64,000 nucleotides of DNA from Pisolithus tinctorius. Its lineage: Eukaryota; Basidiomycota; Agaricomycetes; Boletales; Pisolithaceae. Location: the NCBI GenBank assembly GCA_024663395.1, contig JANFAH010000002.1:558001-622000 (forward strand), in the 5' to 3' direction. Positions 20,241 through 43,652 of this stretch are shown here, in pieces; positions within the stretch are counted from its first letter, which is position 1; each line of letters begins with the position of its first letter. Below the pieces are notes generated by a model that was not told where the DNA came from, ran no database searches, and saw only the letters and a list, made by a program, of their open reading frames with translations. Both the position numbers and the translations under genes were made by a program.

Positions 20241-20241
20241 C

Positions 20242-20404
20242 TGTAAGAAAAGTCCAAGTAGCTGTATAACACGAGCTAGATGGCTTAGATAACAACAATA
20301 AGAAATGAAGGGAACGAATTGTTCGTCCCAAGGGATTCTGGACTGTCAGGACCAGAAGGGGAGACCCAGCGCTTTGTAGCGGTAGTGTTTCGTGGCGTGC
20401 GCGG
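20242..20404 (-). repeat. Ty3/Gypsy B left LTR (3' LTR), first part
   Basis: It starts TGTAAGAAAAG, matching 42999 onward, and is interrupted after 163 bp by element A. The last four bases, GCGG (20401-20404), are the target duplication for A. The part after the insertion is 31907-32397. It is preceded by GCGC (20238-20241), repeated after the other LTR at 43653-43656. Confidence 0.92.
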
Positions 20405-22253: not shown

Positions 22254-22385
22254 TCCACTGGCAAGAAGAAATGCAATCGTCCCCGATTGCGACCAATGCA
22301 GGGAACCCAGGGAAGACAAAAAGAAAAATGAATGAAGGAATGACAGGCAATCAGTATCGTAACAAATGAAAAGGAAATGAAAAGA

Positions 22386-25300: not shown

Positions 25301-26372
25301 TGTTACAAAACTCCCATGGTTTGTGTGGCAGGACAGGAATGATGTAAGGCGAAAAGTAGTCTGAACGAAAGTTTCCTCTCTCCGATTCATCAAACGCCAA
25401 GGCACGCTCATTAAGCTTCATGACATGCGAAAAAAGTTTTTCCTCTTCTGGCCAGAGAAAGCCATCAGCGTTAATCTTCATGGAGGTAAGGCGCTCTTGA
25501 GTAAGCTTCCTTGTGGGAATGAACACAGGAGGGTGACATGTGAGAGGTGTGAGTGATGCGAGGGGGTCTTCTGGAAACTGGCGATGGACCTGAGCATCTT
25601 CTGGATAGACTCCAGGCACTGGCTTGACTTTACGATCAACGCGCTTGTACGCTCCATACACCGGCTGTCCTGTTTCATCGGCTGAGTCTTCCATATCTGT
25701 AGCAAGGCTTTTTCTAAAACGTAACAAATCAAGAAAGTCAGACAGAGAATAGTAAAAATGAAGCTGTTTTTCAGTTTTCTGAATAAGAAGGGGATCTGGT
25801 GCTTTTGAAGGACTAGATAACAAAGAAGAGAAGACATCAAGATAAAAAGAGCTCTGGAAATCTGAAACTGAAGGAGGCATAGTAAGTGATGTTACAGGAG
25901 TATCTGAGCAAAGAAATGATATATGTGGGTTTAGGAGTTTAACGACTTCTCGGTCAAAGTGAGCAGACGAAGAACAAGAAAAACTATAAGTACAAGAGGG
26001 GACATACGAATCAATCTTCAAAGAGCTGGAGAAATAAATGATGAGATATGGGAGAAAGTGGAGGAACACATCCGAAAAGATCACTGGACCTGTCTTGAGT
26101 TGAACCTGAGGAAGTGGAAGCAGGAAAGTGGTCTGGGTATGAAACTGCTTCGAAAGGGGGAGGATGAGCTGAGGCTGAAGCAAAACTGACCGCACTGGCA
26201 AGGATATGAAGACTGGAGTTTGGGAATGCACCTGTGTCCTCTTCATCCACATCACCTGAATGGTCCTCTGCAGCTTCCTGCAAATGAGCAATCCATCCAG
26301 TAGGGGTACGACACATGACAACATTGTTGTACGGCTCTGGCATGGCAACTGACTCTTCACCAACAGCAGCAT
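22386..26372 (-). pseudogene. pol: Element A pol: RT, RNase H and integrase, one nonsense codon
   Basis: One reading frame runs from about 26000 to 22386, broken by a single TGA at 25280-25278 (PIPPGI*ERVIQLL). Upstream of the stop is a pol linker (FLWPEEEKLFSHVM..FDESERGNF). Downstream come the RT (RSKWFCVMKKNGKIRIVHD; TVFDLFSGFDAHQL; catalytic FIDDLPVKG near 24870), RNase H (LSVDTSNIAIGFVLS near 24350; KLELYGLFRALRHY; VEVDAKYIKG), and integrase with an HHCC zinc end (HEELGHRG..SCHECQ). The integrase D-D-E residues lie in VDVMLMPK, VTDNGSEV and NGVVERGH. The C-terminus has a GPY-like block (YLGPYEVVRHTKGGSY) and a Glu/Asp/Asn-rich tail, with no chromodomain. The frame lies in a different register from gag and overlaps its 3' end. 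The first 120 codons of this overlap are not protein-like, so pol probably begins near the gag stop. Confidence 0.9.
23859..23885. repeat. Palindromic module inside A pol
   Basis: GCACAAGTCGTCGACAAGTT, then GCGC. The same module occurs in gag and in the LTR, but here it is read in a different frame (ATCRRLVHE instead of QLDDELC). Confidence 0.7.
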
Positions 26373-29300
26373 TAGACATGGCTAGGGGAGCTGAGGCTAG
26401 TAATGGCATAGGAAGAGTTGGACTAGAGGAATGCTGATGCCTGTGTAAGTCGTCGTCGAGTTGTGCAGACTGAGGCAAGGATGGGCTAGGCAGACAGAAG
26501 CGAGAGCCAACACTAGTGTTGAACATATCAGAGTTGAGTGGCGAAAGTGTGGTGGGTATATCTGGGGATAGACTGGACAAGTGGTGGGACACGCACAACT
26601 CGTCGACGAGTTGCGTGGACTGAGAGTCATGACCTATATCTGAGGATGAACCTAGCAGCTGCACATGGCTGCACAAGCCGTCGTCGAGTTGTGCAGATTG
26701 ATGATGGGTGGATGGACTGGGTGCATATGGATCCCTGCACAACTCATCGTCGAGTTGTGTGGACTGAGAGTCATGGCAAGCTTCATGGGAAGTAGGGGCA
26801 ACTGAACCGCAGTAGGAAGTATTGAAGATGGAGAATGTAGCTTCAGAGTCTGGAGTGACAGTGTCTCTACAGAACAGAAGTGAAGCCTGGTGAGAACCAT
26901 CAGCGGGCTCCTCTTGAATGATAACCAGATCTGGGGACGGGGGAGAGGGAGTCTGAGGTGGAGCAGTAATGCCATTAGAAAGTACGTGTGAAGCAGGTAG
27001 ACTTGAGTTAGATGGCAGGTCTGGAGGTGGAGATGCATTGCTCTGAGTGGGAGATGCCTGTGGGAGTAGATGAGGATAGAACCTGACATAGGCAGAACCT
27101 TCAAGCTCATGGTAATGCTCAAGTGGGGCAGGAACCTGTCGGACTAAGCGAACATCAAGCATAAGGAAGTCTTGGAAGTAGACTCCTGATTCATCAGTAC
27201 CTCTTTCTCCAGCAAGTGCATGGTTTGAGTCGAGATAAAGGGAGGACAGATGGGGAGTGCGATGAGCAAGGCTAGTAAGAAGTGAGACAAGTGACTGGCG
27301 CTCTTCTCTTCTGATCTGGCGACGAATCTGGGCAAGGGTAGGATTATCCTCCAATCCACTCGTATCAGTGGACTGTAACTCCTGAGTAAGCTGACCAACA
27401 AACTCCGAAGGAAAGGGACTGGTAGGAGGTGGGAATGCTTGGACAGGAATGGGATGGAACACAGGAAAGGCTGAGGCAACATCAAACCCATCTGGGGGCG
27501 ATTCAGGATATAGCAGAATAGAATCGAGTGACCGAGGGGGTGACTGCGAAGTTGATGGGGGTGGAGCAAAGACGATGGGCGAAACATGATGAGGGGTACC
27601 AACTGCTACATCTCTCATAGGTTCATTGGCTTCTTGCTGAGAATGGACAGGCTCTAGAGTTGCCATAAGAGTATCTGCAACAGATCCAAGCTGGCCTTCA
27701 GTAACACACATCTCCAGGGGGCGATCTGAATCAGCTCCAAAGACAACATAAGTTCCAGACTCTCTTTCAACAATGCCAACCGAGTTCCCAAGAGCCCAAG
27801 GACAACCAAGGAGGAGATCAAAGCCTGCATTAGTGTCTGGGGCGACGAATAGATTGGTCCAAGTCCTGGCAGCACCACAGAAGAGAGGGACATCTTGTAC
27901 CAGACCTTTCAGAGTAGAGATACCTCCTTTTGCATCTCGCATATTGATGGTCTGCGACATATCGATGGGCATGCGAATGACTGACTGGGCTATACCAGCA
28001 CGAACGACATTGAGGGTAGATCCAGAGTCAATGACACCTGTTACACGACGACCATTGCAAGTCAGATTGATAGTGATGAGGGGACTAGAAGTCAATGCCA
28101 AGTAGGAGGATGCAGGAGGAGTTCCTTCAACAGCAGTAACAGACTTGACTGGCTGAGCCAGGGGCTGTCTCTTGAATCGCATAAGCTCCTGAAGGTGCTG
28201 AGAAACATCCCTAGATGATCCAATGACCTCCCCAACAGATACAGTCAAGGGAGTAGAAAGAATGCGCTCTACAATGGCTTTAGAGTTGGCAGACTGTGAA
28301 AGTGATGAAGACAGGGAAGTGGTAGGAGGGGGCTTGGATTTCTTAGACCTGTCTGCAGAATCAGTGGCTTGACCAGATGGCTTTGGGACAGTGGCATCTT
28401 CCATGACAGCATCATCTCTAGTTCCATCAAAGACAGTGGGATGGATGTCAACTGGTACAAAGGCAGGGGCAAGTGGTACTTTCTGTGGAGCAGGGATGGA
28501 TGCAGAGGATGAGGGCTTTGGCTCCTGACTCTCTTTCTCCTTGCCATGCGAACGAGGCGGGACAAGGACACTGTCAAAGACAGCCTTTCTCTTCTCTTTG
28601 GTAACCTTGTTAGAGCGATCCACAGCAGCAACAAGGGGTTCTTCTTCCAACTCATAAATCTCGGCACTAGACTCTTCTTCGGCCTCTTCATGGATAACAA
28701 AGCGAACTGCATTGGCAGGCTGAGCAGCAGCTTTAGTGCGCTCATAAGCTTGCAGGATAGTCTCTTCTCCATTGCGATAGATGCGCTGTCCATTAGGGTA
28801 GATGACTCGATGGTTTTCATCACGTGCCAAAGAACCCTTCTGAATGAGATCATTAATGGCCTGGCAACTCTCAACACCATGGCCTTCAACACCACAGCCA
28901 TAACAAGTGATGGTCCTTCTAGCAGGACGGGTCTGGGATGAGGAAGTAGCAGCAGGGGCAGTGGATGCAGGAGTAGATGCAGGAGCAGGACGAAGGGAAG
29001 GGGCACGAAGCACCTTTGCAGCATCAGGATCCATCTTGATAGCACGATAGTAAAGGAGGGAGTAGTCTGGGTCACTGAGTGACATGCGAGAGAGGGACTT
29101 GATTAGGGTCTCAACCTCATCTTGTTTGCGAGCAGTAGGACCTTCTTTCTCCAAATTTTCAAGGTTTCTTCTGGCTTCATGGGAAGGGAGCAGAGGGCGA
29201 ACACTGTCATCTCTTCCATCTGAGCGATGAGAAGCATTAGGCTGGGCCTGAGGAGCAGGGGCAGCACGAGGGCCAAGGAAGTCAAGGTCATCTGCATCAA

Positions 29301-29952
29301 AGCGATCACGACGAAGGACCTCTTCAGCTGACTGGCATACATCATCATAGGGGAATGGCCTGCTGATGTCAAGGTTGGGATCCTTTGTCCTAAGACGAGT
29401 TTCAACCAAGCCACGAAAGACTGGGGACAAACCAGCCCAAAAGTAGTGATTATATTCATCAACTGATATCCTTCCTTTGTTCTTCAACCAACCTCCAATG
29501 CGAATGAAGCCACGGTTGTAAGCCCTAAAGTCTTGAAGAGTCATGATGGGCTGCATCCTAGACTCCAAAGCAAAGCTCTTGAGATGCCTTTCAAAGAACC
29601 TTTCATCTGATAGATCAGCATCAAAGTACTTGAGGAGATCAGCCTTCAAGTTAGCCCAATCAGGAGTGTAGTAGTGAGCCATTCCTTCAATAATCTCCCT
29701 AACACGAGCATTGCAGTACTGGAGGATGGATTCAACCATTTCCTGGTCAGAAGTGACATTGTGGTAGGCACAGAGACGTTCATAGTGGTCCAAGAAGGAG
29801 CGAACATGGGTATGGTCTCCTTGGAAGAGTTCTGGAGCAGACTTCATGCCAAGCAAGGGCATAGTGAGGACAGAGCGAGCAGGGGGAGCAGCCATAGCCA
29901 CTGGAACTGCTGATGATGTAGGAGGATAGATAGTGGGGATGGTGGATGACAT
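26011..29952 (-). CDS. gag: Element A Gag and protease polyprotein
   Basis: A 1313-aa open frame starting 101 bp inside the 5' LTR. Residues 35-230 are a capsid-like helical region (FQGDHTHVRSFLDHYERL.., YNHYFWAGLSPVFRGLV). A CCHC zinc knuckle, CYGCGVEGHGVESC, lies near residue 350. A retropepsin follows near residues 635-760 (VTGVIDSGSTLNVV; DLLLGCPWALG). The remaining 550 residues are low-complexity and rich in Ser, Pro and His. They contain four copies of a QLDDEL-type peptide encoded by palindromic DNA (26443-26768). It is unusually long for a Gag-PR. Translation of pol would need a frame change or an alternative message near 26011. Confidence 0.9.
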   Translation of the reverse strand: MSSTIPTIYPPTSSAVPVAMAAPPARSVLTMPLLGMKSAPELFQGDHTHVRSFLDHYERLCAYHNVTSDQEMVESILQYCNARVREIIEGMAHYYTPDWANLKADLLKYFDADLSDERFFERHLKSFALESRMQPIMTLQDFRAYNRGFIRIGGWLKNKGRISVDEYNHYFWAGLSPVFRGLVETRLRTKDPNLDISRPFPYDDVCQSAEEVLRRDRFDADDLDFLGPRAAPAPQAQPNASHRSDGRDDSVRPLLPSHEARRNLENLEKEGPTARKQDEVETLIKSLSRMSLSDPDYSLLYYRAIKMDPDAAKVLRAPSLRPAPASTPASTAPAATSSSQTRPARRTITCYGCGVEGHGVESCQAINDLIQKGSLARDENHRVIYPNGQRIYRNGEETILQAYERTKAAAQPANAVRFVIHEEAEEESSAEIYELEEEPLVAAVDRSNKVTKEKRKAVFDSVLVPPRSHGKEKESQEPKPSSSASIPAPQKVPLAPAFVPVDIHPTVFDGTRDDAVMEDATVPKPSGQATDSADRSKKSKPPPTTSLSSSLSQSANSKAIVERILSTPLTVSVGEVIGSSRDVSQHLQELMRFKRQPLAQPVKSVTAVEGTPPASSYLALTSSPLITINLTCNGRRVTGVIDSGSTLNVVRAGIAQSVIRMPIDMSQTINMRDAKGGISTLKGLVQDVPLFCGAARTWTNLFVAPDTNAGFDLLLGCPWALGNSVGIVERESGTYVVFGADSDRPLEMCVTEGQLGSVADTLMATLEPVHSQQEANEPMRDVAVGTPHHVSPIVFAPPPSTSQSPPRSLDSILLYPESPPDGFDVASAFPVFHPIPVQAFPPPTSPFPSEFVGQLTQELQSTDTSGLEDNPTLAQIRRQIRREERQSLVSLLTSLAHRTPHLSSLYLDSNHALAGERGTDESGVYFQDFLMLDVRLVRQVPAPLEHYHELEGSAYVRFYPHLLPQASPTQSNASPPPDLPSNSSLPASHVLSNGITAPPQTPSPPSPDLVIIQEEPADGSHQASLLFCRDTVTPDSEATFSIFNTSYCGSVAPTSHEACHDSQSTQLDDELCRDPYAPSPSTHHQSAQLDDGLCSHVQLLGSSSDIGHDSQSTQLVDELCVSHHLSSLSPDIPTTLSPLNSDMFNTSVGSRFCLPSPSLPQSAQLDDDLHRHQHSSSPTLPMPLLASAPLAMSNAAVGEESVAMPEPYNNVVMCRTPTGWIAHLQEAAEDHSGDVDEEDTGAFPNSSLHILASAVSFASASAHPPPFEAVSYPDHFPASTSSGSTQDRSSDLFGCVPPLSPISHHLFLQLFED
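26443..26768. repeat. Four palindromic modules in A gag
   Basis: Four near-palindromes with core CAACTCGTCGACGAGTTG lie at about 26443-26470, 26588-26620, 26669-26705 and 26734-26768. All are in the gag frame and encode QLDDEL-like peptides ending in Cys or His. The spacing between copies is irregular (about 66-145 bp), so they are not a simple tandem repeat. Confidence 0.8.
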
Positions 29953-30052
29953 AGTAATGAGATATCAAGTGGGTTTCAGAGACAAGTTTCAATAGGCTGA
30001 GTGAGCAGGGTTCTTGATCCAGGAATAACCACCCCTCGCGGTGGGCTCCAGA

Positions 30053-31902
30053 TGTGAGTCAAAGTGTGGAATGCTGGTGAAAACCAAACAAATCCAACAC
30101 CAAAAGACAAATAAAAGCGAGTGGTGGTTTGCCTCTGCGGAACCTGGAGTGCAGAGAAACCTAAAGTGGGGGGAGTTTCAATGGCAGGTGCTCCTAGCGC
30201 AAGTCGACGACGAGTTACGCAGGAGAAGACAAGCAAGTGATGATTGGATGGGGGATGCTGAACAGAGCAAAGGTGTTCAGCTGAAAGGACTTGGGATGAT
30301 GGACTTTAATAAGATGTGCTCCTGGCGCAAGTCGATGACGAGTTACGCAGGAGTGGAGGGATGACAAAGACTGCTGACTAAGAGGAAGCTTCAGATGAAT
30401 AATGGAGGCAGGTAGACTCTTCCAAATGAGCCTCAACTACCAAGTATACAAATGATGACAGATAGACCCCTTCGTGGAGCCTCAACTGTCGACGATGAGA
30501 TAGGCACTGGACTGACTGCTGGACTGCTTCTGAATTGATTCTCGATTGATTGTTTCTGGGTAGCTAAGTACATGGGGGTTTATATACTGAGGGGGGAGCA
30601 CAGCTTGTGACAAACAAGGCACAAACACTTGGTAAGTAATGAGTAAGGACTGAGTAATCATGATGAGTAAGCGAGAAATGAAAAGTAAGCAAGCAAAGAA
30701 GATTGGTAAGTATTGGCAATGAACGAGTCAAGGATAGTCAAAATATCACAGAATGAGTCAAATAGAGTCAGAAACTGAGTAAGCGCACTGATATCACATT
30801 AGGGGGTGGCGATGCAAGTCAGATCTCGGCGGAGACATCTCTAGATCCAAAGATGGCATGACAGATGGACAGTGTTTCCAGATAGGGAAGTATTAATTCC
30901 AGAATTGAAGGGCATGAGTCAGGCGTCAAAGGGGGCTAGGGCATTGGGGGTCTGTGGGGCAATGAGAGCATACGCGATCGCGTCTCCCACCCTTCCATCC
31001 TCTCAGCGAAGTTAACAAAACTTCATGAACAGGGCTCTGATGGAGGAGGAGAAGGGGGGACGTCTTCTGCTGGATCTTGCAGTAAGAAGGCAAGATGCAT
31101 GTCATACTCGTCATGAATGCGATCAGGGAGGCTGGAGGACAGTAGATTATACTGCAGCTGTCGCAATGCGGGAAGAATGATGGACGAGACTGGAATAAAG
31201 ACAGTGCAGGGAGCAGGGAGGAACGATCCATATGCTTCATCAACTGGGGAGACTGAAACGACCACATAAGACCTTTCTAACCGAGTGACAGACCTGAGGT
31301 GACCAAAGAACGTCCTTCTGGAAGTCATACTGACAAGGAGAACACGCTGACCAAGCTGCATGGGATGAGACGGGGCTGACAATGATGGGATGAACCAGGG
31401 GGCTTCAGGACGGAAGCTGGTGGGAACGCCTGGCAGATATACATAGCCACTGTCTCTGGCAAATGAGACAAGCGAGATGACCGACGAAGAGGTGGCCATG
31501 ATTGATGGACTTTGCGAAATGAGCATCTGATGGATGGAGTGCTGTAGAAACACGCAGGGTGCGAGGATCCTCTCCAAATTTGGAAGGAAGAATCATGGGG
31601 CTGAGCACTTTAAGCGAGCATGCGAACCAAGTTGATATCTTTGGAAATGGCGGAGATATGACGAAAACCGGAATGCCGTACATGGGCGCTAAAAACCTTT
31701 AATGCGCGCCCAACTCGCTTCCTCTTTTCTCTTTAGCACTGACGACTCGATCTTGTGCGAAGGATGACTGTTCATGTCCAACAGTCTTTCTACGCATGAG
31801 GCCTTTAGTCTTCATCTGCATGCATGGGCATCGTGCGCAACTCGTCAACGAGTTAGGCAGAGTCAGCTGTAACCATGTCCACAACACCTTTGGTGTGTGA
31901 CA
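30053..31902 (-). repeat. Element A 5' LTR (subtype A2)
   Basis: 1850 bp, nearly identical to 20405-22253. The ORF in U3 runs 31499-31023. The TATA box is at about 30580 on the sense strand. Differences to the other LTR include changes at former CpG sites, near 30136, 31594, 31629 and 31682. Confidence 0.95.
31023..31499 (-). CDS. LTR-encoded ORF (U3) in element A 5' LTR
   Basis: 158 codons from MATSSS to TGA, one Pro codon shorter than in the solo copies (PPPSEP for PPPPSEP). The identical frame in the 3' LTR is 21850-21374. No known domain. The 3' LTR copy would lie within a genomic transcript. Confidence 0.55.
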   Translation of the reverse strand: MATSSSVISLVSFARDSGYVYLPGVPTSFRPEAPWFIPSLSAPSHPMQLGQRVLLVSMTSRRTFFGHLRSVTRLERSYVVVSVSPVDEAYGSFLPAPCTVFIPVSSIILPALRQLQYNLLSSSLPDRIHDEYDMHLAFLLQDPAEDVPPSPPPSEPCS

Positions 31903-32397
31903 GCGGCGTGGTCCGCGGAGTAGTACTGGCGATGCGAGTGGTGCGAGCGGTATACGTAGTTCGTGCGCGGCGGAATGCGAGATGTGCAGTGTAGACGAAG
32001 TGGAAAGGAAACTCGTGGTGACCTTCCGAGTGCCAAAAGGTATCATTCTGTACCTAAGTACAGGGCTTTATAGTCCGGACAAACCCGGAACCTAAGTAAG
32101 ACGGGGTACAGTAAAGGAAAGCCGCGCGACAGCGCGTACACAGAAGACAGGCCAAACAGAGGCCGAGGGTATACTACAAGCACTAAAGGAATAGAGACCG
32201 TGATAAGAGAAGGAGTCCAAGGAAAAACAACAACCGGAGCACAGCGGCCGTGGGTATAGCATTGCGCGAGAGGGAGCGAGGGCGCGGGAAGGTAGCGTGC
32301 GAACAATGGTGAATGCGAGAGGGGAGCGGACGTAACAGTAGTCACGGAACGGTTAATGATAGGGGCTTACGCGTCCAGGGAATGCGGATTCCTCACA
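31903..32397 (-). repeat. Ty3/Gypsy B left LTR (3' LTR), second part
   Basis: It resumes the B LTR after element A and matches 43160-43652. Its first four bases, GCGG, are the second copy of the A target duplication. It ends ..GATTCCTCACA at 32397. Seven differences from the right LTR were found by eye over the whole LTR, all C/T or G/A at CpG. Confidence 0.93.
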
Positions 32398-32435
32398 CCT
32401 GCGGGGGACTTAGATGCTGACCGTCCCCGGTCAGC
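32398..32435. repeat. Hairpin repeat, copy 1, bordering the antisense gene module
   Basis: CCTGCGGGGGACT is followed by a perfect 8-bp stem with a 4-base loop (GCTGACCG TCCC CGGTCAGC, 32416-32435), directly next to the LTR. A second copy lies at 36382-36420. Its stem differs by a paired C/T and G/A change that keeps pairing. Confidence 0.8.
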
Positions 32436-32620
32436 CACGTGGCGCGGAGGACATAAATAGCTTGCCGTGTGGTGATGGCAACGGTGTGGTGCCGAGGGTT
32501 CAAGAACACCGGATGATTCCGCGTGGAAGCGAAGGAAGCGTAGAGCCGAGGGACGCGAGAAGGCCGTTGAATACCGCGTATAGGCGTCCGGACCGATGAC
32601 ATAAGCGCCTCATGGCCGCT

Positions 32621-32628
32621 AAGTATAT
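32621..32628 (+). promoter_or_regulatory. TATA box of the antisense gene in element B
   Basis: TATATAAT about 80 bp upstream of the ATG at 32709, in a short intergenic region (32436-32708) that otherwise holds no ORF of note. It supports an independent plus-strand transcript. Confidence 0.5.
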
Positions 32629-32708
32629 AATTGTTAGTGCGCGGCTCAAACCTTCGCATCGATTTGATTCTTTCCTCCCCTCCATCCATCGCATCTAATA
32701 CTCTCCCC

Positions 32709-35680
32709 ATGTCTGCCAACCGTGCCCCTCGTCTCTCCCAGCTCGTACGCGCAGCCACCCCCGACCCGATCGAAGCAGAGAAGACCTCGCTGAGGGAGAA
32801 GTTCGTTGCCGCCTCCGCGGCTCTGGTCGCTGAGGCCAAGTGCCTCCCAGATGACAAGGAGGAATTGTGGGAGGAGAAGGTGATGTGGATGCGCAGATGG
32901 GAGCAGAGGATGGTAAGTGTCCAACGCCTTTGAGGCTCACAGTAATGACTGTTTTCCAGGGAGAAGTGTTCCCCCTCGTCGAGCGCGGGCGAGCGTTGGG
33001 AATCGACACCAAAATAGACGCGGCGGATGGTCCCGCGGTAGCAGAGGCCGACAAGGCCTATGAGAGGTGGGTGTCCGAGGAGATCGCGCGGGGGAGAGCC
33101 GACGAGGACGTGCGGATGGAAGAGGCGGTCGCGCAGGCTGTCGTCGAGCAAGGTACCAGTGCTGAGGTGCCGGCGACGACAGAGAAAATGTCGCACGTCG
33201 AAGTGGTGTCCCGTCCGGTTCAGAAGGTAAGTGCGGAATCTGGACGGTGCGGTAGCGGCTAACACTGAAGTCCTAAGCGATCGCGGCAAATGGTGGTAGA
33301 GAGCGAAGACGAGGACGAGTCGAAGATCGACGTCCCACCTGGTTCGATTCTCCACAAGGTGCCCTGCGCGCTGTCACACACCAAAGGTGTTGTGGACATG
33401 GTTACAGCTGACTCTGCCTAACTCGTTGACGAGTTGCGCACAATGCCCATGCATGCAGATGAAGACTAAAGGCCTCATGCGTAGAAAGACTGTTGGACAT
33501 GAACAGTCATCCTTCGCACAAGATCGAGTCATCAGTGCTAAAGAGAAAAGAGGAAGCGAGTTAAGCGCGCATTAAAAGTTTTTAGCGCCCGTGTACAGCA
33601 TTCCGGTTTTCGTCGTATCTCCGCCGTTTCCAAAGATATCAACTCGGTTCACATACTCGCTTAAAGTGCTCAGCCCCACGATTCTTCCTTCCAAATTTGG
33701 AGAGGATCCTCGCACCCTACACGTTTCTACAGCACTCCATCCATCAGACGCTCATTTCGCTAAGTCCATCAATCATGGCCACCTCTTCGTCAGTCATCTC
33801 ACTTGTCTCATTTGCCAGAGACAGTGGCTACGTATATCTGCCAGGCATTCCCACCAGCTTCTGTCCTGAGGCCCCCTGGTTCATCCCGTCGTCGTCAGCC
33901 CCATCTCATCCCATGCAGCTTGGTCAGCGTGTTCTCCTTGTCAGTATGACTTCCAGAAGGACATTCTTTGGTCGCCTCAGGTCTGTCACTCGGTTAGAAA
34001 GGTCTTATGTGGTCGTTTCAGTCTCCCCGGTTGATGAAGCATATGGATCGTTCCTCCCTGCTCCATGCACCGTCTTTATTCCAGTCTCGTCCATCATTCT
34101 TCCTGCATTGCGACAGCTGCAGTATAATCTACTGTCCTCCAGCCTCCCTGATCGCATTCATGACGAGTATGACATGCATCTTGCCTTCCTACTGCAAGAT
34201 CCAGCAGAAGACATCCCCCCTTCTCCTCCTCCTCCATCAGAGCCCCATTCATGAAGTTTTTGTTAACTTCGCTGAGAGGATGGAAGGGTGGGAGACGCGA
34301 TCGCATATGCTCTCATTGCCCCACAGACCCCCAATGCCCTAGCCCCCTTTGACGCCTGACTCATGCCCTTCAATTCTGGAATTAATACTTCCCTATCTGG
34401 AAACACCGTCCATCTGTCATGCCATCTTTGGATCTAGAGATGTCTCCGCCGAGATCTGACTTGCATCGCCACCCCCTAATGTGATATCAGTGCGCTTACT
34501 CAGTTTCTGACTCTATTTGACTCATTCTGTGATATTTTGACTATCCTTGACTCGTTCATTGCCAATACTTACCAATCTTCTTTGCTTGCTTACTTTTCAT
34601 TTCTCGCTTACTCATCATGATTACTCAGTCCTTACTCATTACTTACCAAGTGTTTGTGCCTTGTTTGTCACAAGCTGTGCTCCCCCCTCAGTATATAAAC
34701 CCCCATGTACTTAGCTACCCAGAAACAATCAATCGAGAATCAATTCAGAAGCAGTCCAGCAGTCAGTCCAGTGCCTATCTCATCGTCGACAGTTGAGGCT
34801 CCACGAAGGGGTCTATCTGTCATCATTTGTATACTTGGTAGTTGAGGCTCATTTGGAAGAGTCTACCTGCCTCCATTATTCATCTGAAGCTTCCTCTTAG
34901 TCAGCAGTCTTTGTCATCCCTCCACTCCTGCGTAACTCGTCATCGACTTGCGCCAGGAGCACATCTTATTAAAGTCCATCATCCCAAGTCCTTTCAGCTG
35001 AACACCTTTGCTCTGTTCAGCATCCCCCATCCAATCATCACTTGCTTGTCTTCTCCTGCGTAACTCGTCGTCGACTTGCGCTAGGAGCACCTGCCATTGA
35101 AACTCCCCCCACTTTAGGTTTCTCTGCACTCCAGGTTCCGCAGAGGCAAACCACCACTCGCTTTTATTTGTCTTTTGGTGTTGGATTTGTTTGGTTTTCA
35201 CCAGCATTCCACACTTTGACTCACAGCGCGTTGTCTGGTCAGGAACGCCACGTGCACAGGTCCCGCCGGCCGCACATGCGATGGCTGTGCGCGGATGAAG
35301 CAAAGGTGCGAGAAGTCGACGAAGGCCGCGGGGAAGAGAGCGCAGGCGGGGACATCGGTCGGTAAGTAGTGTCTTCATCTCGGGAGGTGCGGAACTAACG
35401 GTCCGCAGCTCAAGCTTCGAAGACCGCGAAGGCCGGCCCTTCCAAGAGGACCGTTGACGACGACGACGACGACGACGAGGTGGAAGTGGTCGAGAGCCAC
35501 ACGCGCGCGAAGGGGAAGGCGCCTGTGCGCAGTCGGCTCGATGCCAAGGTCGCGGCAGACCTCTCGCAATCGCTGAGGCTGCTGCGAGCCGAAGCCGCGG
35601 AGTCGCAGGCAGCATACCTTCACCTGCAGGTGCGCGTCGATCAGCTCGCCGAAGCTCTGGAGAAGATTGGGGTGGAATAG
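32709..35680 (+). CDS. Antisense cysteine-cluster/coiled-coil gene in Ty3 element B, broken by solo LTR-A
   Basis: Four exons on the strand opposite to gag-pol: 32709-32912, 32960-33226, 33278-33371 plus 35230-35361, and 35409-35680. Introns of 47, 51 and 47 nt all have GTAAGT-type donors and AG acceptors. Without the LTR the frame is open for 322 codons with no stop. The protein begins MSANRAPRLSQLVRAATPDP and has a helical, charged first half. The cluster PCARCLVRNATCTG...CDGCARMKQRC has C-x2-C-x6-C-x7-C-x2-C-x6-C spacing. It is followed by a basic segment, a run of seven Asp, and a C-terminal coiled coil (LSQSLRLLRAEAAESQAAY, LAEALEKIGVE). A role in nuclear DNA or nucleic-acid binding is inferred from the cluster only. 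The solo LTR-A at 33372 splits the Arg codon between the first two cysteines. The locus at 11083-12819 has the same cluster spacing. Confidence 0.75.
33372..35225 (+). repeat. Solo LTR, family A (subtype A2), plus orientation
   Basis: 1854 bp from TGTCACACACC to ..TTGACTCACA, with target duplication GCGC at 33368-33371 and 35226-35229. It includes the LTR-encoded ORF (33775-34254), TATATAAA at 34692-34699, and palindromic modules near 33416-33442, 34925-34960 and 35052-35086. It is inserted in exon 3 of the antisense gene of element B. Confidence 0.95.
33775..34254 (+). CDS. LTR-encoded ORF (U3), plus-strand copy
   Basis: 159 codons, MATSSS to TGA, in context aatcATGGcc. It lies 404-883 bp into the LTR, upstream of the TATA box at LTR position 1321, hence in U3. 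It was used here as the reference for comparison with the old copy at 54003-54482: both are 480 nt including the stop, and many differences are synonymous. No recognised domain or signal peptide. Confidence 0.6.
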   Translation: MATSSSVISLVSFARDSGYVYLPGIPTSFCPEAPWFIPSSSAPSHPMQLGQRVLLVSMTSRRTFFGRLRSVTRLERSYVVVSVSPVDEAYGSFLPAPCTVFIPVSSIILPALRQLQYNLLSSSLPDRIHDEYDMHLAFLLQDPAEDIPPSPPPPSEPHS

Positions 35681-36560
35681 GAACGTTTGTAGTTAGTCCA
35701 GATTCGTTGTACTGTCTCATCCGCATGTCAGCGCATATCACGCTAAATACACCGCTTTTCTTGCTTCTGCGCAAAGTTGCGAACGACTCGAAATGCTTAA
35801 AGATGTTCCATGGGACAGTGCAGCTGCAGTAAGATATGATGCGCGGGGTACCGCCCGACTTGTCTTCTTCGTGCGGCTTTCGACTTCTCTCAACGGTAAG
35901 TCCTCGTGAAACGATCTTGATGGTAGGATGTGACAGAACGACGGAGAGAGAGCGAAGGGACTGTTTATCGGGTAACTGTGACAGTCTTTGGGTATTAATT
36001 GTAAGGAAGCGGAAGGAGAATTGAAAGAAAAACAGATCAAGGGGCGCACGCTGACTGCGCGATCGAAGAAGAAATGCTCGGAGTCTTTGCGAGTATCCGC
36101 GGTATAGAGCGGCCGAGGACGGCATCAGCGAGACTAGTAAGAGAGATAGGAGAGACGTTGTTTTGGCTATATACTTATTCGGTGTTTTGTTATTTTTCTG
36201 GACGGTTTTGGACTTTTTGTAAGCGGTTTTTATGTTTTTTGAGCGAGGACTAGCTATCAGTAGAATCACCGGACGAAACCCGGGGTGAAATAGAGGTCTC
36301 CGGACGAAACCCGGGGTAAAACAGATAAAGGGAAACGAACTATGTCTGACATCGGGCAGATCAAGTGGTATGCTGGTCACCCCTGCGGGGGACTTTGAAC
36401 GCTGACTGTCCCCAGTCAGCATGGGAGAAGGAACGAGCGTAGTAGGAGAAGCCGCGGGGAGGCGGGCGAGGCCGTGGAAAGAGGTATGGGTATCGTGGGA
36501 GAAGAGGGTACGGAGGAATAGCGCGATGGACAAACTGTGGATACTGGAAAGGATGGATAG
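35681..36560. other. Element B non-coding stretch between antisense gene and pol
   Basis: No convincing coding region. It holds a direct repeat of CCGGACGAAACCCGGGGT (36269-36286 and 36300-36317, 31 bp apart), a T-rich segment near 36160-36240 that could end the plus-strand transcript, and hairpin copy 2 at 36382-36420. Long minus-strand open frames here are shadows of the GC-rich antisense gene and LTR. Confidence 0.5.
36382..36420. repeat. Hairpin repeat, copy 2, pol side of the antisense module
   Basis: CCTGCGGGGGACT is followed by GCTGACTG TCCC CAGTCAGC (36401-36420). The 8-bp stem is perfect, as in copy 1, with a compensatory pair change. The two copies are direct repeats enclosing about 4 kb (about 2.1 kb without the solo LTR). 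Confidence 0.8.
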
Positions 36561-39500
36561 TCAGCTGTCTGCGGAAAAAGCCTCCACATCATCATCAGTG
36601 GGGTCATCCTCAGCCTCTTCAAGAAGGTGGTCTAGTTCTTCATCACCTAACCCAGTAATGCGAGTTACGGTTGCGCGGGTCTGAGACCGCGGGTGGTAGG
36701 GAAGTAAGCAGAATGCAGCGAAGCGGAGTTTGGAGATGGAGCCATCCAGCTCGGCCAGTAGGTACGAGCCGCCAGTGGTCCAACGAAGGACGACCATGGG
36801 ACCGGTGTACCGCGGCTTCGTCTTCCAGTTCAGCTCTTTCTCTACGCGGGAGTTGCGAACAAGCACGAGGGCGCCGGGAGCGAAGTTATGGTCTTTAATG
36901 CGATGCTGAAAGGCGGCTTCGAACTGCTGGATGGACTGGAACCGTGCGCGGAGGACGTTGCCGCGGACCTGGTCCAAGTCATCCTGACGCTTCTGCAACT
37001 GGCGCGCTCGCCAAGCTATCAGTTCTGTGGTAGTCAGCGGTGTCGCATCATCGCGGGATAGGGGTAAAAGGAAAGTAGCCTCCGCAAGGTCGAATGGGAA
37101 CAGCGGTTCGACACCATGTACCATGAAATAAGGGGATAGACCCGTGGATTTCAAAATGGTGACCCGCTCAGCCCAGAAGACAGAGTGCGCAACGGTGTGC
37201 CAGCGGCGATCATCGTTCTCGCAGCTCTTCATGATAGCCTCGCGAACATCATAGTGGCGGCGCTCTACAATGCCGTTAGCCTGAGAGTTGTAAGGAGAGA
37301 TATGGATGTGACGGATATGATATTGCGTGGCTAGGGCATCTAAAGCTTGGACAAACGCGGGACCGTTGTCGGTGACAATCTCGGTGAGCGGACCCCAGCG
37401 GCATAGGATATCCTCGAAGATGAAGGACGCGAGCGCGGTACTATTTTCCGCGTGCAACATGCACCATTCGGGATATGAGGTGAGCGCGCAACGAGCCTGT
37501 ACGATGTAGCGGTAGCCGCCGGCTTTGGGCATCAGCATCGTGTCAATGTGAGCTTTATGAAACAGGCCCCCTATCATGGGTACAGTGGGGGGGATGTGAA
37601 GCTTTTGCGTCTGGCGGATCTGGCATTCGTGACAAGTGCGAACATACCACTTCACATCCTCGACAAGAAGAGGCCACCAGAAGCGAAGGAGAAGGCGCGT
37701 GCGGACCGTGAAGACTCCCTTGTGTCCGAGGTCGTCATGCGCTTCTCTGATGAGACGATACCGCTTGGATTCGTCGACGACTAGCTGGTGCCGTCCGTGC
37801 GGCTCTCTACGCCATAAGTTACCATCTAGGAGGAAGAAGCGGCTGGCCGAATTAAAGAAGGATGAGTACTGCGCATCAGTAAGGTCAGGAGGTCGCTCGT
37901 GGGTCGCGAGGAATGCGCAGATCATTTCTATCTTTGCTTCGCGTGCCCGAGCTTTCGCGGACCGCGGAATAGCAGGGTCGTCTGAGGTATTGGAAGGGTT
38001 ATTAGCATCAGCAGTTGCAGAGAATGCGAGATAGAAGGATGCAGGCGGCGGGAGGCTCGCCCGATGGTAAGCGGGTGGCAGTAGGGAATGGCGATCTGGA
38101 CTGGAAAGTGACATAGGAGGCGGGCGGTCATTGACAACCTGTGTAGAGAAAGAGTAAAAACGGTCCAGCCAATCCTCATGGTCGTCATCCTCGGGCGGGT
38201 CGAGCTCCGACCGCAGACGGCGGGATAAGCCATCAGGGCCGGCATGCCTATCCGCGGGAACGTGGACGAGTTTGAACGAGAAAAGGAGGACGCCAGCGAT
38301 CCAGCAATTGATCGTCGCGTTAGGCTGCAGATCTGGGTTATTTATCATACCCTTAATATACTTCGCATCTACCTCCACAGTGAAGTTAGTGAGGCCAAAG
38401 ATGTATACACGTACCGCGCGCAACGCGTGGAAGAGACCGTACAACTCAAGCTTGGCCTGGGAGTAGCGGCTTTCCACTTCATTGAGGGTGATGGATCCGA
38501 AGCGACTTGGGTACCGTCTGCCATCGTCGCCAAGCTGGTAGAGGATGTAGCCAACTGCGATGACCGATGTGTCGACCGCTAGAACTACTTCGCGACCGCA
38601 CTCGTAGTTGATTCTTCGGAGTGCGGGGGACTTTACAATTTCATCTTTGAGGCGTTGCATGGCAGCGCGTTGCAGCTCGTCCCATGTGAATGGTACGTCT
38701 TTCCGCGTGAGTGCGACTAGCGGCCGCGCGATCTTGGCGAAGTCTTTGATGAAGATGCGTAGCACTCCGCAGACACCGAGGAAACCGCGAACCTGTGTCA
38801 GGTTGCGGCACTCGGGCCAGTCGCGGATCTTCTGCACTTTGCTTTCTTCAGGAATGCGACCTTCGAAGGTGCACTTGTGGCCAATGATCACAGCGGACGG
38901 AGCGGCTAGCACGAACTTCTTTGCCGAGACGGTGGCTCTGACGTTCTGCAAACGCTGAAGGATACGGTTAACAACTATACAGTGATTCCAGATAAATTTC
39001 CGAATCCCCGGATTCTCCGGGATAGTCTCATAGGAGCCGTCTGCACGCTGATAGCGGGTGGTTTCGGATTTCACGGGGACGTCATCTATGAAGGGTAGGG
39101 TATGATGCGGGATCTCATCCTGGAGAACAAATGCAGTATCTCCCTGGTATACCTGTACCGCATTCGCATGACCTTGCGGCAGAGTAGTAAGCCGATGTGG
39201 TCCGAGGGGGGTACCGAAGGTGGTGAGGTCGCGGGAATCGACGTGGAGTGCGCGCTGGTCATACCCGGAGTAGAGGTCCATCATCGCATACACTGCATAT
39301 CCAGCAAAGGATTCTGCGAGGTGTTCTACGAAGGGCAGAACGGACGCATCGCGGATGGTCACTGCATTCAGGGGCTGTAAGTCATGCACAAGGCGAAGAG
39401 ACTTTCCGTCTTTCTTTACTACGCAGAACCAGCGGGAGCGGTAAGCCGCTGTAGAAGGTTCATACATGCCGGACTTGATGCGATCTTTAATCATGTCTAT

Positions 39501-40172
39501 GACTTGGGCATGGATCGCGTTCGGGATAGGGATATTGCGTTGGACCCAAGGCGTGTGCGGAACCGTAGGAATCTTTACTGCCGGAAAATAGCGTTCGTCT
39601 AGGTGTCCGCGCTCTGTAATGTCCCAAGCGAATGCGAGCTCATGGACCGAAACGAGCCAAGTTACGAGTTTAAGTTCTTCTGGCCAAAGCCAATCTGCAG
39701 GGTCGAGGTCAAGTTCCGCGGCCTGTTCGGCAGTGAAGCGGACGCCCGGGGCGAAGTCTGGAGGATGGGTTGGAAGTGGTTGGAGACCAGCGAGCGGGTC
39801 GTCAGGCAGGCTGCGCACGATGCGGTACTCTTCTGCCATCGGGGCAGGTACCGTCCGAACCTTCTTGGCAACTGGCTTGTAAATGAGGGTGCGAACCGCG
39901 GGATCTAGTTGATAAACGCTGCCGAATGCGGCTATAGCAGAGGGGTTTAGTATTGTCTGAGTGGAAGAGAGGAAAGCGAAAACAGGCGAGGGTATTCTGG
40001 TGGGTATGTTCCGCGGTACGGGTGCCGCAGGTGAAGAGAAGTTCGTCGAAGTGAAGGCTAGGGATGAGACAGTAGGACTGAGGAACAGATAACAGCGGCT
40101 AAACAGGAAACAGGACGTTTTAGTAGGCTCTCCCCGACCGTTTGGTGGATCATCGATATTCAAAAACCCCAT
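36561..40172 (-). CDS. pol: Element B pol: RT, RNase H and integrase, intact
   Basis: A 1203-aa open frame with no interruptions. RT lies near residues 240-430 (RSRWFCVVKKDGKSLRLVHD; MMDLYSGYDQRAL; catalytic FIDDVPVKS). RNase H lies near 540-660 (LAVDTSVIAVGYILY; KLELYGLFHALRA; VEVDAKYIKG). The integrase zinc end is HDDLGHKG..TCHECQ, and its catalytic D, D and E lie in HIDTMLMPK, VTDNGPAF and NGIVERRH. The C-terminus has a GPY-like block (RYTGPMVVLRW) and an acidic tail, without a chromodomain. The initiator ATG at 40172 overlaps the end of the protease frame, which sits one base ahead, with a GGGTTTT heptamer at the overlap. Expression by -1 frameshifting is therefore plausible. Confidence 0.93.
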   Translation of the reverse strand: MGFLNIDDPPNGRGEPTKTSCFLFSRCYLFLSPTVSSLAFTSTNFSSPAAPVPRNIPTRIPSPVFAFLSSTQTILNPSAIAAFGSVYQLDPAVRTLIYKPVAKKVRTVPAPMAEEYRIVRSLPDDPLAGLQPLPTHPPDFAPGVRFTAEQAAELDLDPADWLWPEELKLVTWLVSVHELAFAWDITERGHLDERYFPAVKIPTVPHTPWVQRNIPIPNAIHAQVIDMIKDRIKSGMYEPSTAAYRSRWFCVVKKDGKSLRLVHDLQPLNAVTIRDASVLPFVEHLAESFAGYAVYAMMDLYSGYDQRALHVDSRDLTTFGTPLGPHRLTTLPQGHANAVQVYQGDTAFVLQDEIPHHTLPFIDDVPVKSETTRYQRADGSYETIPENPGIRKFIWNHCIVVNRILQRLQNVRATVSAKKFVLAAPSAVIIGHKCTFEGRIPEESKVQKIRDWPECRNLTQVRGFLGVCGVLRIFIKDFAKIARPLVALTRKDVPFTWDELQRAAMQRLKDEIVKSPALRRINYECGREVVLAVDTSVIAVGYILYQLGDDGRRYPSRFGSITLNEVESRYSQAKLELYGLFHALRAVRVYIFGLTNFTVEVDAKYIKGMINNPDLQPNATINCWIAGVLLFSFKLVHVPADRHAGPDGLSRRLRSELDPPEDDDHEDWLDRFYSFSTQVVNDRPPPMSLSSPDRHSLLPPAYHRASLPPPASFYLAFSATADANNPSNTSDDPAIPRSAKARAREAKIEMICAFLATHERPPDLTDAQYSSFFNSASRFFLLDGNLWRREPHGRHQLVVDESKRYRLIREAHDDLGHKGVFTVRTRLLLRFWWPLLVEDVKWYVRTCHECQIRQTQKLHIPPTVPMIGGLFHKAHIDTMLMPKAGGYRYIVQARCALTSYPEWCMLHAENSTALASFIFEDILCRWGPLTEIVTDNGPAFVQALDALATQYHIRHIHISPYNSQANGIVERRHYDVREAIMKSCENDDRRWHTVAHSVFWAERVTILKSTGLSPYFMVHGVEPLFPFDLAEATFLLPLSRDDATPLTTTELIAWRARQLQKRQDDLDQVRGNVLRARFQSIQQFEAAFQHRIKDHNFAPGALVLVRNSRVEKELNWKTKPRYTGPMVVLRWTTGGSYLLAELDGSISKLRFAAFCLLPYHPRSQTRATVTRITGLGDEELDHLLEEAEDDPTDDDVEAFSADS

Positions 40173-41398
40173 TCGACTATACTTTGGTGGCTATGGCAGT
40201 GCTTGCCGCACTTGCAGCGTGGACAGCCCTCGCGCCACGGGCGCGTGGGCAAAGTGTACTCGCGGCCGTCGTTCGGGTCTTGGAGAGTAATCCGCTGCCC
40301 GCCGTCGGGATAATCGTTTGTTACCGCACTCATAAGGCAAATGAACGGACGTCCGAGGAGCATGTCGAAGTTGGCATGCTCAATTACTTGAACCTGGAGC
40401 ATGACTGGCCCAGCGCCGAAGTCGAGTTTCAGGTTCTCTAGTACGCCTACAGTAGTGTCTTTAGACATGTTAGCAGACGTCATAGTCATGAGATGATCGC
40501 AGCGCAATGGAAGCCCGATCTTTTCCCAAACGCGCCTGGGCATGGCGACGATTTCCGAACCGGAATCTAGTATGCAGTTGATGGTGACGTCGGTCCCAGG
40601 GACCTTGGCTTCGAGGCAGTGGAGCGGCAGAGTGTGGTGAGCTACGATGGAGCCGTCGTCACCGCGGATAACGCGGTCTCCGTATTCGCGCGCGGTTCTT
40701 TGAGGATCGCGGCCAGTCAGTTCGTTCACTTGTACTCCTTCTTCATCGTCGCTACGAACTACCTCAATCTCGTTTGTGGTGACGCGTTTCACCATGGTGA
40801 TGTCTCTGAACTGTTTGCGAAACTCGGGGGCAACTGCAAATAATTCTTTGACTGGCATGGCAATGCTGGTTTTGAGTACGCGCTCCACGATATGCTTGGG
40901 CGCGGCTTCGTCTTCGAGAGGGAACGAGTAACGGTACTGGTTTTGATTGCGAGCTGATGGGTATGGTGTCTGTGTCGGAACAATTGCCGCGGGAACGGGG
41001 TCTTTGCGCGCGGGCGTTGGAGCCGGATTAGTCGGAGGAACATATGGTTTCGTAGCGGTTGACGTTGGTGCAGGTGTGGAGGGCTCGGATGCCTGGCGAG
41101 CGGCACGCGAACTTTGGACACCAGGGGAAATGATTTCCTCTTCAACAGTGGCTGCGCGCGGGTCGACTCATGGAGGGTTGGCAGGACGTGCCACGGGTCG
41201 AGCTGTGATTTCAACTCTGTCGAAGCGGGCTTTCTTTCCGCGGGAAATGACTGCTCCCTTGTTACCTTTATCCGCTTGGTAGGTAGCCCAAGCTTGAGCG
41301 ACATATGCTTGGAAGTCAGGGTCGGCTAAGTCTGCGACAGGTTCATCGGCGTCTTGGACGGTGTTTAAGAAGGCGGAAGGCTGGATTTCCAGCTGCAC
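40160..41398 (-). CDS. Element B protease region
   Basis: A frame running from about 41398 to 40160, broken by one TGA at 41170-41168 where CGA would fit. The distal part, from 40888, contains a retropepsin (INCILDSGSEIVAM near 40560; DMLLGRPF near 40340) and ends SIVEWGF just as pol begins in the -1 frame. The upstream part is a Pro/Thr/Ala-rich linker. It joins gag near 41400 through a frame change. Confidence 0.75.
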
Positions 41399-42673
41399 GT
41401 CAATTTCGGGATGAGCAACGCAGAAGAGGTTAGCGGTGCCTTGCGCGGAGCGGCAGGAGTCGTAGCACGCGCGCTGGCCTGGTCTCTGTCAGCCATGACG
41501 CGGTCAACAGCCTCTCTCAGTGAGTTACATTCAGGGAAACGTGGAATTCGGCTCCCGTCCGCCAGATAGAGACGGTTGTCTGTACCTCTCGTGATCTTAC
41601 CGGCACGGATATAAACTTCAACGAGCGCGCACATCCTTGTCCAGTGGTTGGGGTCTGCACAGAAACTGCAGCTGGGTCTGCGTTGCTGCGGCGGAGGCTG
41701 CGTCTGGAAGTTGTATTCCTGTTTAACAACAGTACCAGCAGGTGGCACTTGCGGCATGTAAGCCGACGAGGGAGGTGCAGCTGGCGAGGCTGCGGTACCC
41801 ATCGTCGGTACCGCGCTACGAAGAGCGGATCCTGTCAGAAGGAACTTGGCAGCTTTGACGACTTCTGCGAGTGGGTATGGATTGTCAGGGTGGAGGTCGG
41901 TGCGGACTATAGAGAGTCGATGACGAATACGATCTGCGATGGCCCTCGGGAAGCCATTCAGGAACATGGAGTCCCGTTCCGTCTCTGCAAGCTTTTTAGT
42001 TTTAATGAGCAGGGCAGAAATCTTAGCGAATTTCCGCTGGTATTCTCCGAGGTCATCCTGGTTCCGCATAGGCTTGGACTGATATTCTTCGATGAGGTAC
42101 TGCAAGTCTGCACGGCAGTAGCGGTCGTCACCCTCGCAGCCAGGGTACAAACCCTTAACAGCTACTACGAAGGCATCCCAGTCGTCGGCCGCGGGAGCAG
42201 CTTCCGGAAGCGTTTGCCAGACCTCGGCTTCTTCGAGGTCAGCGTAGCGGATTGCGGCTTTGATCTTGCCACGGTCATCAAGAGCAGCGAGAGTACCGAG
42301 GAAGTCGATGTCTTCGAGGTAGCGTGGGAGAATCTCCGCTAAATTTAGGTGAGTTTTGTGTACCGCGGAGCGGCATCTGAAACTGAGGATTAGCCATTGG
42401 TGGGTTAACCTGTGGTGGCAGTGCCGGATTGGCGACGGGTGGAACGGGTATTGGTTGGAGGTGCGAAGCGGTTGGTATAGTGCGCGAGCGAGCTGGCGGA
42501 AGCGTTGGCGGGGTACTAATTGGCTGATGGGTGGTCTGCGACCGAGTGAGTGGTCGCGGCAGTGTGGCGGATGGAGCTGGGAGTCTGGGTATAGATTTGG
42601 AGGCGTCAAAGAGACGGGAAAAAGAGGGCGTCGGTGATGATGAATCAGATGATGTGACGGGTGCTAAAGGCAA
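41365..42673 (-). pseudogene. gag: Element B gag, frameshifted
   Basis: The N-terminal Pro/Ser-rich part is read from ATG 42673; the frame is open further upstream to the primer binding site without an ATG. Near 42335 the frame changes to that of the capsid-like part (PRYLEDIDFLGTLAALDD..., QYLIEEYQSKPMRNQDDLGEYQRKF..). A CCHC-type knuckle, CSFCADPNHWTRMC, lies near 41650. The single frame change in the sequence APKFSGD/LPRYLED looks like a small deletion. The product would be the structural Gag protein. Confidence 0.75.
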
Positions 42674-42998
42674 TGGCGGGGTTTCAGGCCTTCGGGGAGT
42701 CGAGTGGATAAAGCCACTGGGAAAATCAGGGGCAGTGAGATCTAGGTGATCCGACGCGACGGATATCTGATCTGCCGAGATATCAGGAGGGGTGATCGCG
42801 GGTAGTACCCACGGAATGTCAGCGGGTAATTGCGCGTGATCCGGTGTTATGGGTGAAACAGGGTGGAAAATGTCGGAGTCTTCTGACAGGTTGAGATTGC
42901 GAAAGTGCAGGCGTAAATTTTCTAGTTCGGTGCGTTCGGCGGTGCGCCTGAGCGACCTTCTGGAAGCGACAGCAGAATCCCTCGCGGTGGGCTCCAGT

Positions 42999-43652
42999 TG
43001 TAAGAAAAGTCCAAGTAGCTGTATAACACGAGCTAGATGGCTTAGATAACAACAATAAGAAATGAAGGGAACGAATTGTTCGTCCCAAGGGATTCTGGAC
43101 TGTCAGGACCAGAAGGGGAGACCCAGCGCTTTGTAGCGGTAGTGTTTCGTGGTGTGCGCGGCGTGGTCCGCGGAGTAGTACTGGCGATGCGAGCGGTGCG
43201 AGCGGTATACGTAGTTCGTGCGCGGCGGAATGCGAGATGTGCGGTGTAGACGAAGTGGAAAGGAAACTCGTGGTGACCTTCCGAGTGCCAAAAGGTATCA
43301 TTCTGTACCTAAGTACAGGGCTTTATAGTCCAGACAAACCCGGAACCTAAGTAAGACGGGGTACAGTAAAGGAAAGCCGCGCGACAGCGCGTACACAGAA
43401 GACAGGCCAAACAGAGGCCGAGGGTATACTACAAGCACTAAAGGAATAGAGACCGTGATAAGAGAAGGAGTCCAAGGAAAAACAACAACCGGAGCACAGC
43501 GGCCGTGGGTATAGCATTGCGCGAGAGGGAGCGAGGGCGCGGGAAGGTAGCGTGCGAACAATGGTGAACGCGAGAGGGGAGCGGATGTAACAGTAGTCAC
43601 GGAACGGTTAATGATAGGGGCTTACACGTCCAGGGAATGCGGATTCCTCACA
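42999..43652 (-). repeat. Ty3/Gypsy B right LTR (5' LTR)
   Basis: 654 bp, TGTAAG...CTCACA, uninterrupted, and followed by GCGC at 43653-43656. It contains the intact site GTGCGCGGCGTGG (about 43156) into which element A jumped in the other LTR, so the pre-insertion sequence is known. Confidence 0.95.

Follow-up and report, generated by a model that had tools for sequence, protein, structure and literature searches.

An intron-bearing antisense gene of a Pisolithus Ty3/Gypsy retrotransposon is under purifying selection and occurs as divergent classes nearly uncoupled from the element backbone

A Ty3/Gypsy LTR retrotransposon of the ectomycorrhizal fungus Pisolithus tinctorius (genome of 92.5 Mb), which we call element B, holds on its plus strand what is, judged from its sequence, a real gene of four exons, situated between pol and the 3′ LTR. 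The evidence assembled here shows that this antisense gene belongs to the element and is under purifying selection, with a constraint similar to that of pol. Its copies fall into old classes whose history departs from that of the backbone, a point missed by the initial annotation of the window, that is, of the whole stretch of 64,000 nucleotides analysed. Element and gene are laid out in the window as follows:

20242..43652, minus strand: whole element B, from repeats, ends and domains; it holds a nested LTR element (A) and a solo A LTR
42999..43652, minus strand: B 5′ LTR, from repeat comparison
41365..42663, minus strand: ORF in the gag position, 432 aa, without Pfam match
36561..41167, minus strand: protease and pol ORFs, from Pfam domain matches
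40160-41167, minus strand: aspartyl protease ORF, from a domain match
36561-40190, minus strand: ORF of reverse transcriptase, RNase H and integrase, from domain matches
31903..32397, minus strand: one part of the B 3′ LTR, separated by the A element from the remainder (20242-20404)
20405-31902: A element, nested in the B 3′ LTR
32624..32631, plus strand: TATATAAT, TATA string, 85 bp before the ATG
32709..32912, plus strand: exon 1, with the ATG at 32709
32913..32959, plus strand: intron 1, 47 nt, GTAAGT..CCAG
32960..33226, plus strand: exon 2, from the alignment of copies and a base-by-base check
33227..33277, plus strand: intron 2, 51 nt, GTAAGT..TAAG
33278..33371, plus strand: exon 3, first part, from a base-by-base check
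33372..35225, plus strand: solo LTR of the A family, 1,854 bp, in exon 3
35226..35361, plus strand: exon 3, second part, beginning with the GCGC duplicate and holding the rest of the six-cysteine cluster
35362..35408, plus strand: intron 3, 47 nt, GTAAGT..GCAG
35409..35680, plus strand: exon 4, with the Asp run, the predicted C-terminal coiled coil and the stop TAG (35678-35680)

The order protease, reverse transcriptase, RNase H, integrase and the direct LTRs on both sides identify element B as a Ty3/Gypsy LTR retrotransposon, and the domain matches put gag-pol on the minus strand, so that the gene does lie, as initially annotated, antisense to gag-pol in the interval from pol to the 3′ LTR. 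The 5′ LTR is followed on the minus strand, from 42996 down, by the primer-binding-like string TGGAGCCCACCGCGAGGGA, which we take to be the tRNA primer site. With 7 differences in 647 aligned bases (gaps excluded) between the B LTR pieces, the insertion looks fairly young. The four exons and the GT-AG introns proposed for the gene were verified base by base, and the TATA box placed upstream of its ATG was found at the distance given above; 37 of the 51 spliceable copies have exactly this string in the 120 bp ahead of the ATG, and 50 have either it or any of three closely similar variants. The conserved TATA string and intron signals thus agree with the earlier description of a TATA-driven, spliced gene, at the level of sequence signals. 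The copy in the window is now broken by the solo A LTR in exon 3, which differs from an A LTR at 40 of 1,850 aligned bases.

The three nested LTR insertions of the window carry the 4-bp duplications GCGC (20238-20241/43653-43656, the target duplication of element B), GCGG (20401-20404/31903-31906) and GCGC (33368-33371/35226-35229, on either side of the solo A LTR), as if their integrases preferred GCGC- or GCGG-like sites. DUF4100 (PF13352) is found in ORFs of both LTR families (40160-41167 in B, 26014-29964 in A). Each of the three A LTRs in the window (1.85 kb) has an open frame of 189-222 aa in the sense direction, taken from the ORF list:

33586-34254, plus strand: A-LTR open frame
21374-22039, minus strand: A-LTR open frame
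31023-31592, minus strand: A-LTR open frame

A Pfam search with one of these three frames gave no match. Element B is also flanked by pieces of a non-LTR-like element (19144-20241 and 44662-45126), one side having a reverse transcriptase match and the other an endonuclease-reverse transcriptase match.

The initial annotation had suggested seeking the same gene in other Ty3 copies of the genome, and these carry it rather than lack it. Among 20 copies fetched by pol alone, all four exons were matched in 16, part of them in two (exon 4 in L064, exons 2-4 in L066) and none in two (L053 and L067), in which homology stops inside pol, before the gene. Exons are therefore present in 18 of the 20, that is, in most copies, as in antisense ORFs of the aORF-3R type. 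In counts drawn by hand from the places listed, at least 76 loci of the gene stand on the opposite strand 0.3-7 kb beyond the end of a pol, against two same-strand pairs, among the matches listed for 127 pol places. For 51 of these 127 no gene is among the listed places, although L054, L055, L057 and L064 are known from the pol-fetched set to have one, and for 60 of the 136 gene loci no pol is listed. Another 39 copies were fetched by gene DNA and, having been selected by the gene itself, are not informative on its frequency; their donors are GT in 117 of 117 cases and their acceptors AG in 116 of 117, counted in alignment columns fixed from the splice sites of one copy. Intron signals are present in all gene classes, and five of 130 public proteins are identical at every residue to the joined exons of a copy. 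Introns survive transposition: L010 and L011, which lie on two contigs and are near-identical in LTR, gene and pol, have each retained the three introns. This is the outcome predicted for a genomic RNA antisense to the introns, as the initial annotation had argued.

Constraint was estimated among the 51 spliceable copies, of which 34 have an open frame and 30 of these (29 distinct) also show the usual junctions and C-terminus; the four open copies excluded are L025 and L042, open only with unusual junctions, and L027 and L047, with an altered C-terminus. The median dN/dS (Nei-Gojobori) is 0.18 for the gene (404 pairs of the 29 distinct copies) and 0.16 for pol (251 pairs), the pairs sharing history and not being independent. 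The neutral substitution pattern named at the outset as evidence against the gene was not found. The gene value is the same within and between groups when all 34 open copies are used, and among classes A, C, D and E codon positions 1, 2 and 3 differ by 0.13-0.27, 0.12-0.22 and 0.32-0.53, respectively. Between-group dN is highest in exon 2 and in the coiled-coil part of exon 4 (0.28 each). We need not invoke positive selection as the source of the divergence, given the dN/dS of 0.18 and introns that have diverged at least as much as exons between deep lineages. The constraint, the codon-position pattern and the presence in copies likewise do not favour a chance ORF or a host gene.

In the gene tree, built from 37 copies, we distinguished three deep lineages, each fully supported: D (9 copies), E (4) and A-C (24), the last splitting into the shallower classes A (7), B (6) and C (11), with weak support (64/62) for L009 in class A. 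The synonymous divergence of the gene within A, C and D (dS 0.22-0.24) is like that of pol (0.19-0.23), so there is no mutation hot spot, and region-wide fast mutation was rejected. Between A, B and C, gene dS rises to 0.66-0.75 (pol 0.20-0.27), and between D or E and the others to 1.2-1.7, pol dS being 0.18-0.29 in the same elements. D and E are 94% identical in the LTR, 95% in the 5′ flank, 93% in pol and 89% in the stretch after the gene, their introns 41-56% and their proteins 63%; across the deep lineages the introns are no longer alignable, whereas LTR, 5′ flank and pol are. In the pair L033 and L049, dS is 0.032 for pol and 1.34 for the gene; their flanks are about 98% identical, and identity lies at 38-82% between a point 50 bp ahead of the ATG and one a few hundred bp beyond the stop. 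The gag sequences give a similar picture: among the best 40 places listed, the 39 other than the window are 93-97% identical to it, and they include copies of all five classes at 94-97%, with coordinates matched by eye.

Class labels need 18 changes on the pol tree and four on the gene tree, against a mean of 22.0 for shuffled labels (37 copies; 1 of 300 shuffles as low), and 17 changes on the LTR tree of 34 copies, against 19.6 (22 of 300 as low). On the pol tree, D as one clade is rejected (p 4.5e-106), as is C (p 1e-4), and E is not (p 0.067). Class and backbone are thus nearly, not wholly, uncoupled: exchange is not total, because the E clade is not rejected and the labels cluster on the pol tree a little more than shuffled ones do. 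The simplest reading is that the coding block has been exchanged between elements, probably by recombination in the matching flanks. The classes share the 5′ flank, TATA string included, until about 50 bp ahead of the start codon, so they differ in product more than in promoter. Within the LTR, 5′ flank and pol stretch of 25 open copies, no site is fully linked to class A, C or D, the best class-frequency differences for A, C and D being 0.61, 0.47 and 0.62, and no class-matched target emerged there. Linkage to class is stronger in the stretch after the stop, with a frequency difference of 0.83.

Proteins from P. orientalis bear on the age of the classes. A tree with ten of them, nine of the 19 in a larger tree being left out mainly as partial or long-branch rows, rejects a single P. 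orientalis clade (p 5.6e-7): P0077 groups within E, and P0105, P0121, P0122 and P0127 within D, several P. orientalis rows being long branches and all of them protein sequences. P0071 groups with C in this tree and elsewhere in the larger one. The sharing of D and E by two species suggests that these classes are old; transfer between species would give the same picture. A P. tinctorius protein, P0100, falls among P. orientalis proteins in the trees, through either older polymorphism or transfer between species.

The encoded protein is marked by six cysteines. Their spacing C-x2-C-x6-C-x7-C-x2-C-x6-C is kept in all 30 open copies with the usual junctions, and a slightly wider pattern in 48 of the 51 spliceable copies and in 42 of 49 public proteins of 295-330 aa. 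It falls within the Zn2Cys6 pattern (PF00172), C-x2-C-x6-C-x5-12-C-x2-C-x6-8-C. The six residues are invariant between classes (27 copies compared); the cluster is otherwise 57% identical in its first half and 78% in its second, which includes the basic loop. The Zn2Cys6-like cluster of the initial annotation therefore stands as to spacing, which is exact, but the Pfam Zn_clus model stays below its cut-off, with a weak match in eight of 67 proteins (best E 0.09), and a lysine-rich loop sits between cysteines 5 and 6. The order of helices, six cysteines, Asp run and coiled coil also holds in the sequence. Structure prediction, proposed at the time as a check, was informative in part: the C-terminal helix (residues 274-314) is modelled with confidence (pLDDT about 90), but the model is poor overall (pLDDT 60, pTM 0.24). 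With it, Foldseek found nothing in the PDB at E ≤ 0.001, and a sequence search of the PDB gave one match, with E 1.8. All listed relatives of the protein are from P. tinctorius or P. orientalis; none from outside Pisolithus is among the 120 matches listed of 121 and of 139 (E ≤ 0.01) in searches that need shared five-residue words and that weak relatives could escape. In Pisolithus many of these proteins are annotated as hypothetical proteins of the host or under the label 'Zn(2)-C6 fungal-type', a warning for annotation, as these are genes of the element.

Two further features concern the surroundings of the gene. The module is bordered at both ends by a palindromic repeat of 38-39 bp, detected by a lenient match in 48 and 49 of the 51 copies:

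32398..32435, no strand assigned: palindromic repeat, copy 1, adjoining the 3′ LTR at the place of the second-strand primer
36382..36420, no strand assigned: palindromic repeat, copy 2, at the pol end

In the window its 8-bp stem is kept, one pair differing as C-G at one site and T-A at the other, and the folding z-scores are -2.1 and -2.9. Copy 1 contains CCG-N4-CGG, the form of zinc-cluster site known for Leu3. The repeat might serve for priming or for protein binding, or it might be left over from the arrival of the module. In addition, 14,200 of the 25,990 pairwise transitions in the pol stretches of open copies are at CpG, which makes up 14% of the bases; decay this strong, such as silenced and methylated DNA would show, points to cytosine methylation of these elements.

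We propose, and hold the chances to be about even, that this is a selected gene of the element, transcribed from its own promoter and spliced, whose product is likely a DNA-binding, dimerising regulator and whose deep alleles have likely been exchanged between copies. The gene would be transcribed from its predicted antisense promoter and the transcript spliced; the protein would then act in trans on element DNA through its six-cysteine cluster, the predicted coiled coil pairing the monomers. Recombination of co-packaged RNAs during replication, or conversion between copies, could place each class on each backbone, since the flanks are similar enough for it and the deep lineages are too different to recombine within the block. 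As to the sign of regulation, a matter of argument, we favour a positive role, as an activator or anti-silencer keeping copies transcribed, because such a role explains most readily why the element itself would be selected for the protein and because the CpG decay fits silenced, methylated DNA; with a separate promoter the protein could act even from copies whose LTR is silent. Old classes might be kept since host silencing, or the elements themselves, treat them differently.

This last point is where a self-limiting repressor has its appeal: if the protein repressed elements of its own class, rare classes would escape and all would be kept for long, which explains old classes better than a positive role does. 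The classes common to two species and spread over backbones would fit, as would the concentration of between-group dN in exons 2 and 4 next to a better conserved second cysteine half, and HTLV-1 HBZ, also antisense-coded, counteracts Tax, the activator of that virus (PMC5797633). Such specificity would, however, have to rest on protein pairing, given LTR, 5′ flank and pol without a fully class-linked site for A, C and D and gag so similar across the five classes, and it is difficult to see how an element would stay selected to repress itself; we regard the repressor as unlikely. Rather doubtful too is the wider scheme of immunity groups, in which each old class would recognise itself and chiefly affect elements that carry it, rarity would be an advantage to a class and recombination would deal the classes over a shared backbone. 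If true, it would amount to a balanced, trans-species allelic system in a retrotransposon family, like mating types or phage immunity.

Other readings give the product a different task. Cysteines and helices would also fit an accessory protein for integration targeting or RNA handling, whose partner, integrase or genomic RNA, need not be class-specific, in keeping with the lack of any class-specific partner seen; the predicted separate antisense promoter and the binuclear-cluster spacing point instead to a nuclear DNA-binding protein, which makes this improbable. That the gene was captured from the host and rides along, serving the host or nothing, is suggested by its cellular features (its own TATA string and introns), by the palindromic repeat around the module, as an insertion might leave, and by the gene loci listed without pol. 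We find such a passenger quite improbable for a gene with pol-like constraint that is carried by nearly all pol-fetched copies and has no relative outside Pisolithus among the 120 matches listed of 139. An antisense RNA against the 3′ end could lower gag-pol RNA, as PMC7264820 also discusses, but an RNA as the functional product is very improbable, with dN/dS at 0.18, an excess of third-position differences, and introns that diverge freely where the cysteines do not. For the regulator that we prefer, pol-like constraint, introns that survive transposition and deep alleles over similar elements make a standing question testable: whether an element-coded regulator recognises its own kind and thereby sets genome copy number. 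An exchangeable antisense gene could show how such elements regulate themselves or evade control.

Several known systems resemble parts of this one. Fungal Zn2Cys6 transcription factors of the Gal4 type have a coiled coil after the cluster and share this arrangement and the cysteine spacing with the Pisolithus protein, which differs from them in staying below the Pfam cut-off, in its lysine-rich loop in the second half and in a long N-terminal part predicted, with low confidence, to be helical. HTLV-1 HBZ, which is spliced and pairs through a zipper, is likewise an antisense-coded regulator of a retroelement with coiled-coil pairing, the corresponding role in Pisolithus being predicted; HBZ is a bZIP protein, whereas ours has a cysteine cluster, and we know of no exchanged old classes in HBZ. 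In titles and abstract openings of the literature, we found no fungal antisense or spliced gene of an LTR element, nor exchanged classes. Closest in place are the antisense ORFs of plant LTR elements between pol and the 3′ LTR, for which PMC7264820 and PMC11963269 give the role as unknown; as described there, they share with the Pisolithus gene the place, the orientation, the presence in all or most copies and a predicted nuclear localisation or DNA binding. An own promoter is reported there for the plant element Grande, and the conserved TATA string suggests one in Pisolithus. The Pisolithus gene differs in being fungal, in its three conserved introns (the word 'intron' is absent from the main texts of both papers) and in classes that do not follow the backbone. 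Retand antisense proteins carry TRP28, in place of which the Pisolithus protein has its six-cysteine cluster; TRP28 (PF04195) is absent from the Pfam matches of two proteins and from the 25 of 34 families listed for 67 proteins. VANC of the VANDAL transposons, elements of another kind from Arabidopsis to which we claim no sequence relation, is an anti-silencing protein whose DNA binding was demonstrated and whose targets change with the protein, according to PMC5735166 and PMC10398659. Like the Pisolithus protein it is element-coded and diversified among related elements, DNA binding being predicted in our case; VANC targets co-vary with the protein, whereas no fully class-linked site was found for classes A, C and D in LTR, 5′ flank or pol. 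An antisense ORF at such a place was already known in plants, and what appears to be new here is the fungal host, the introns and the likely exchange of classes.
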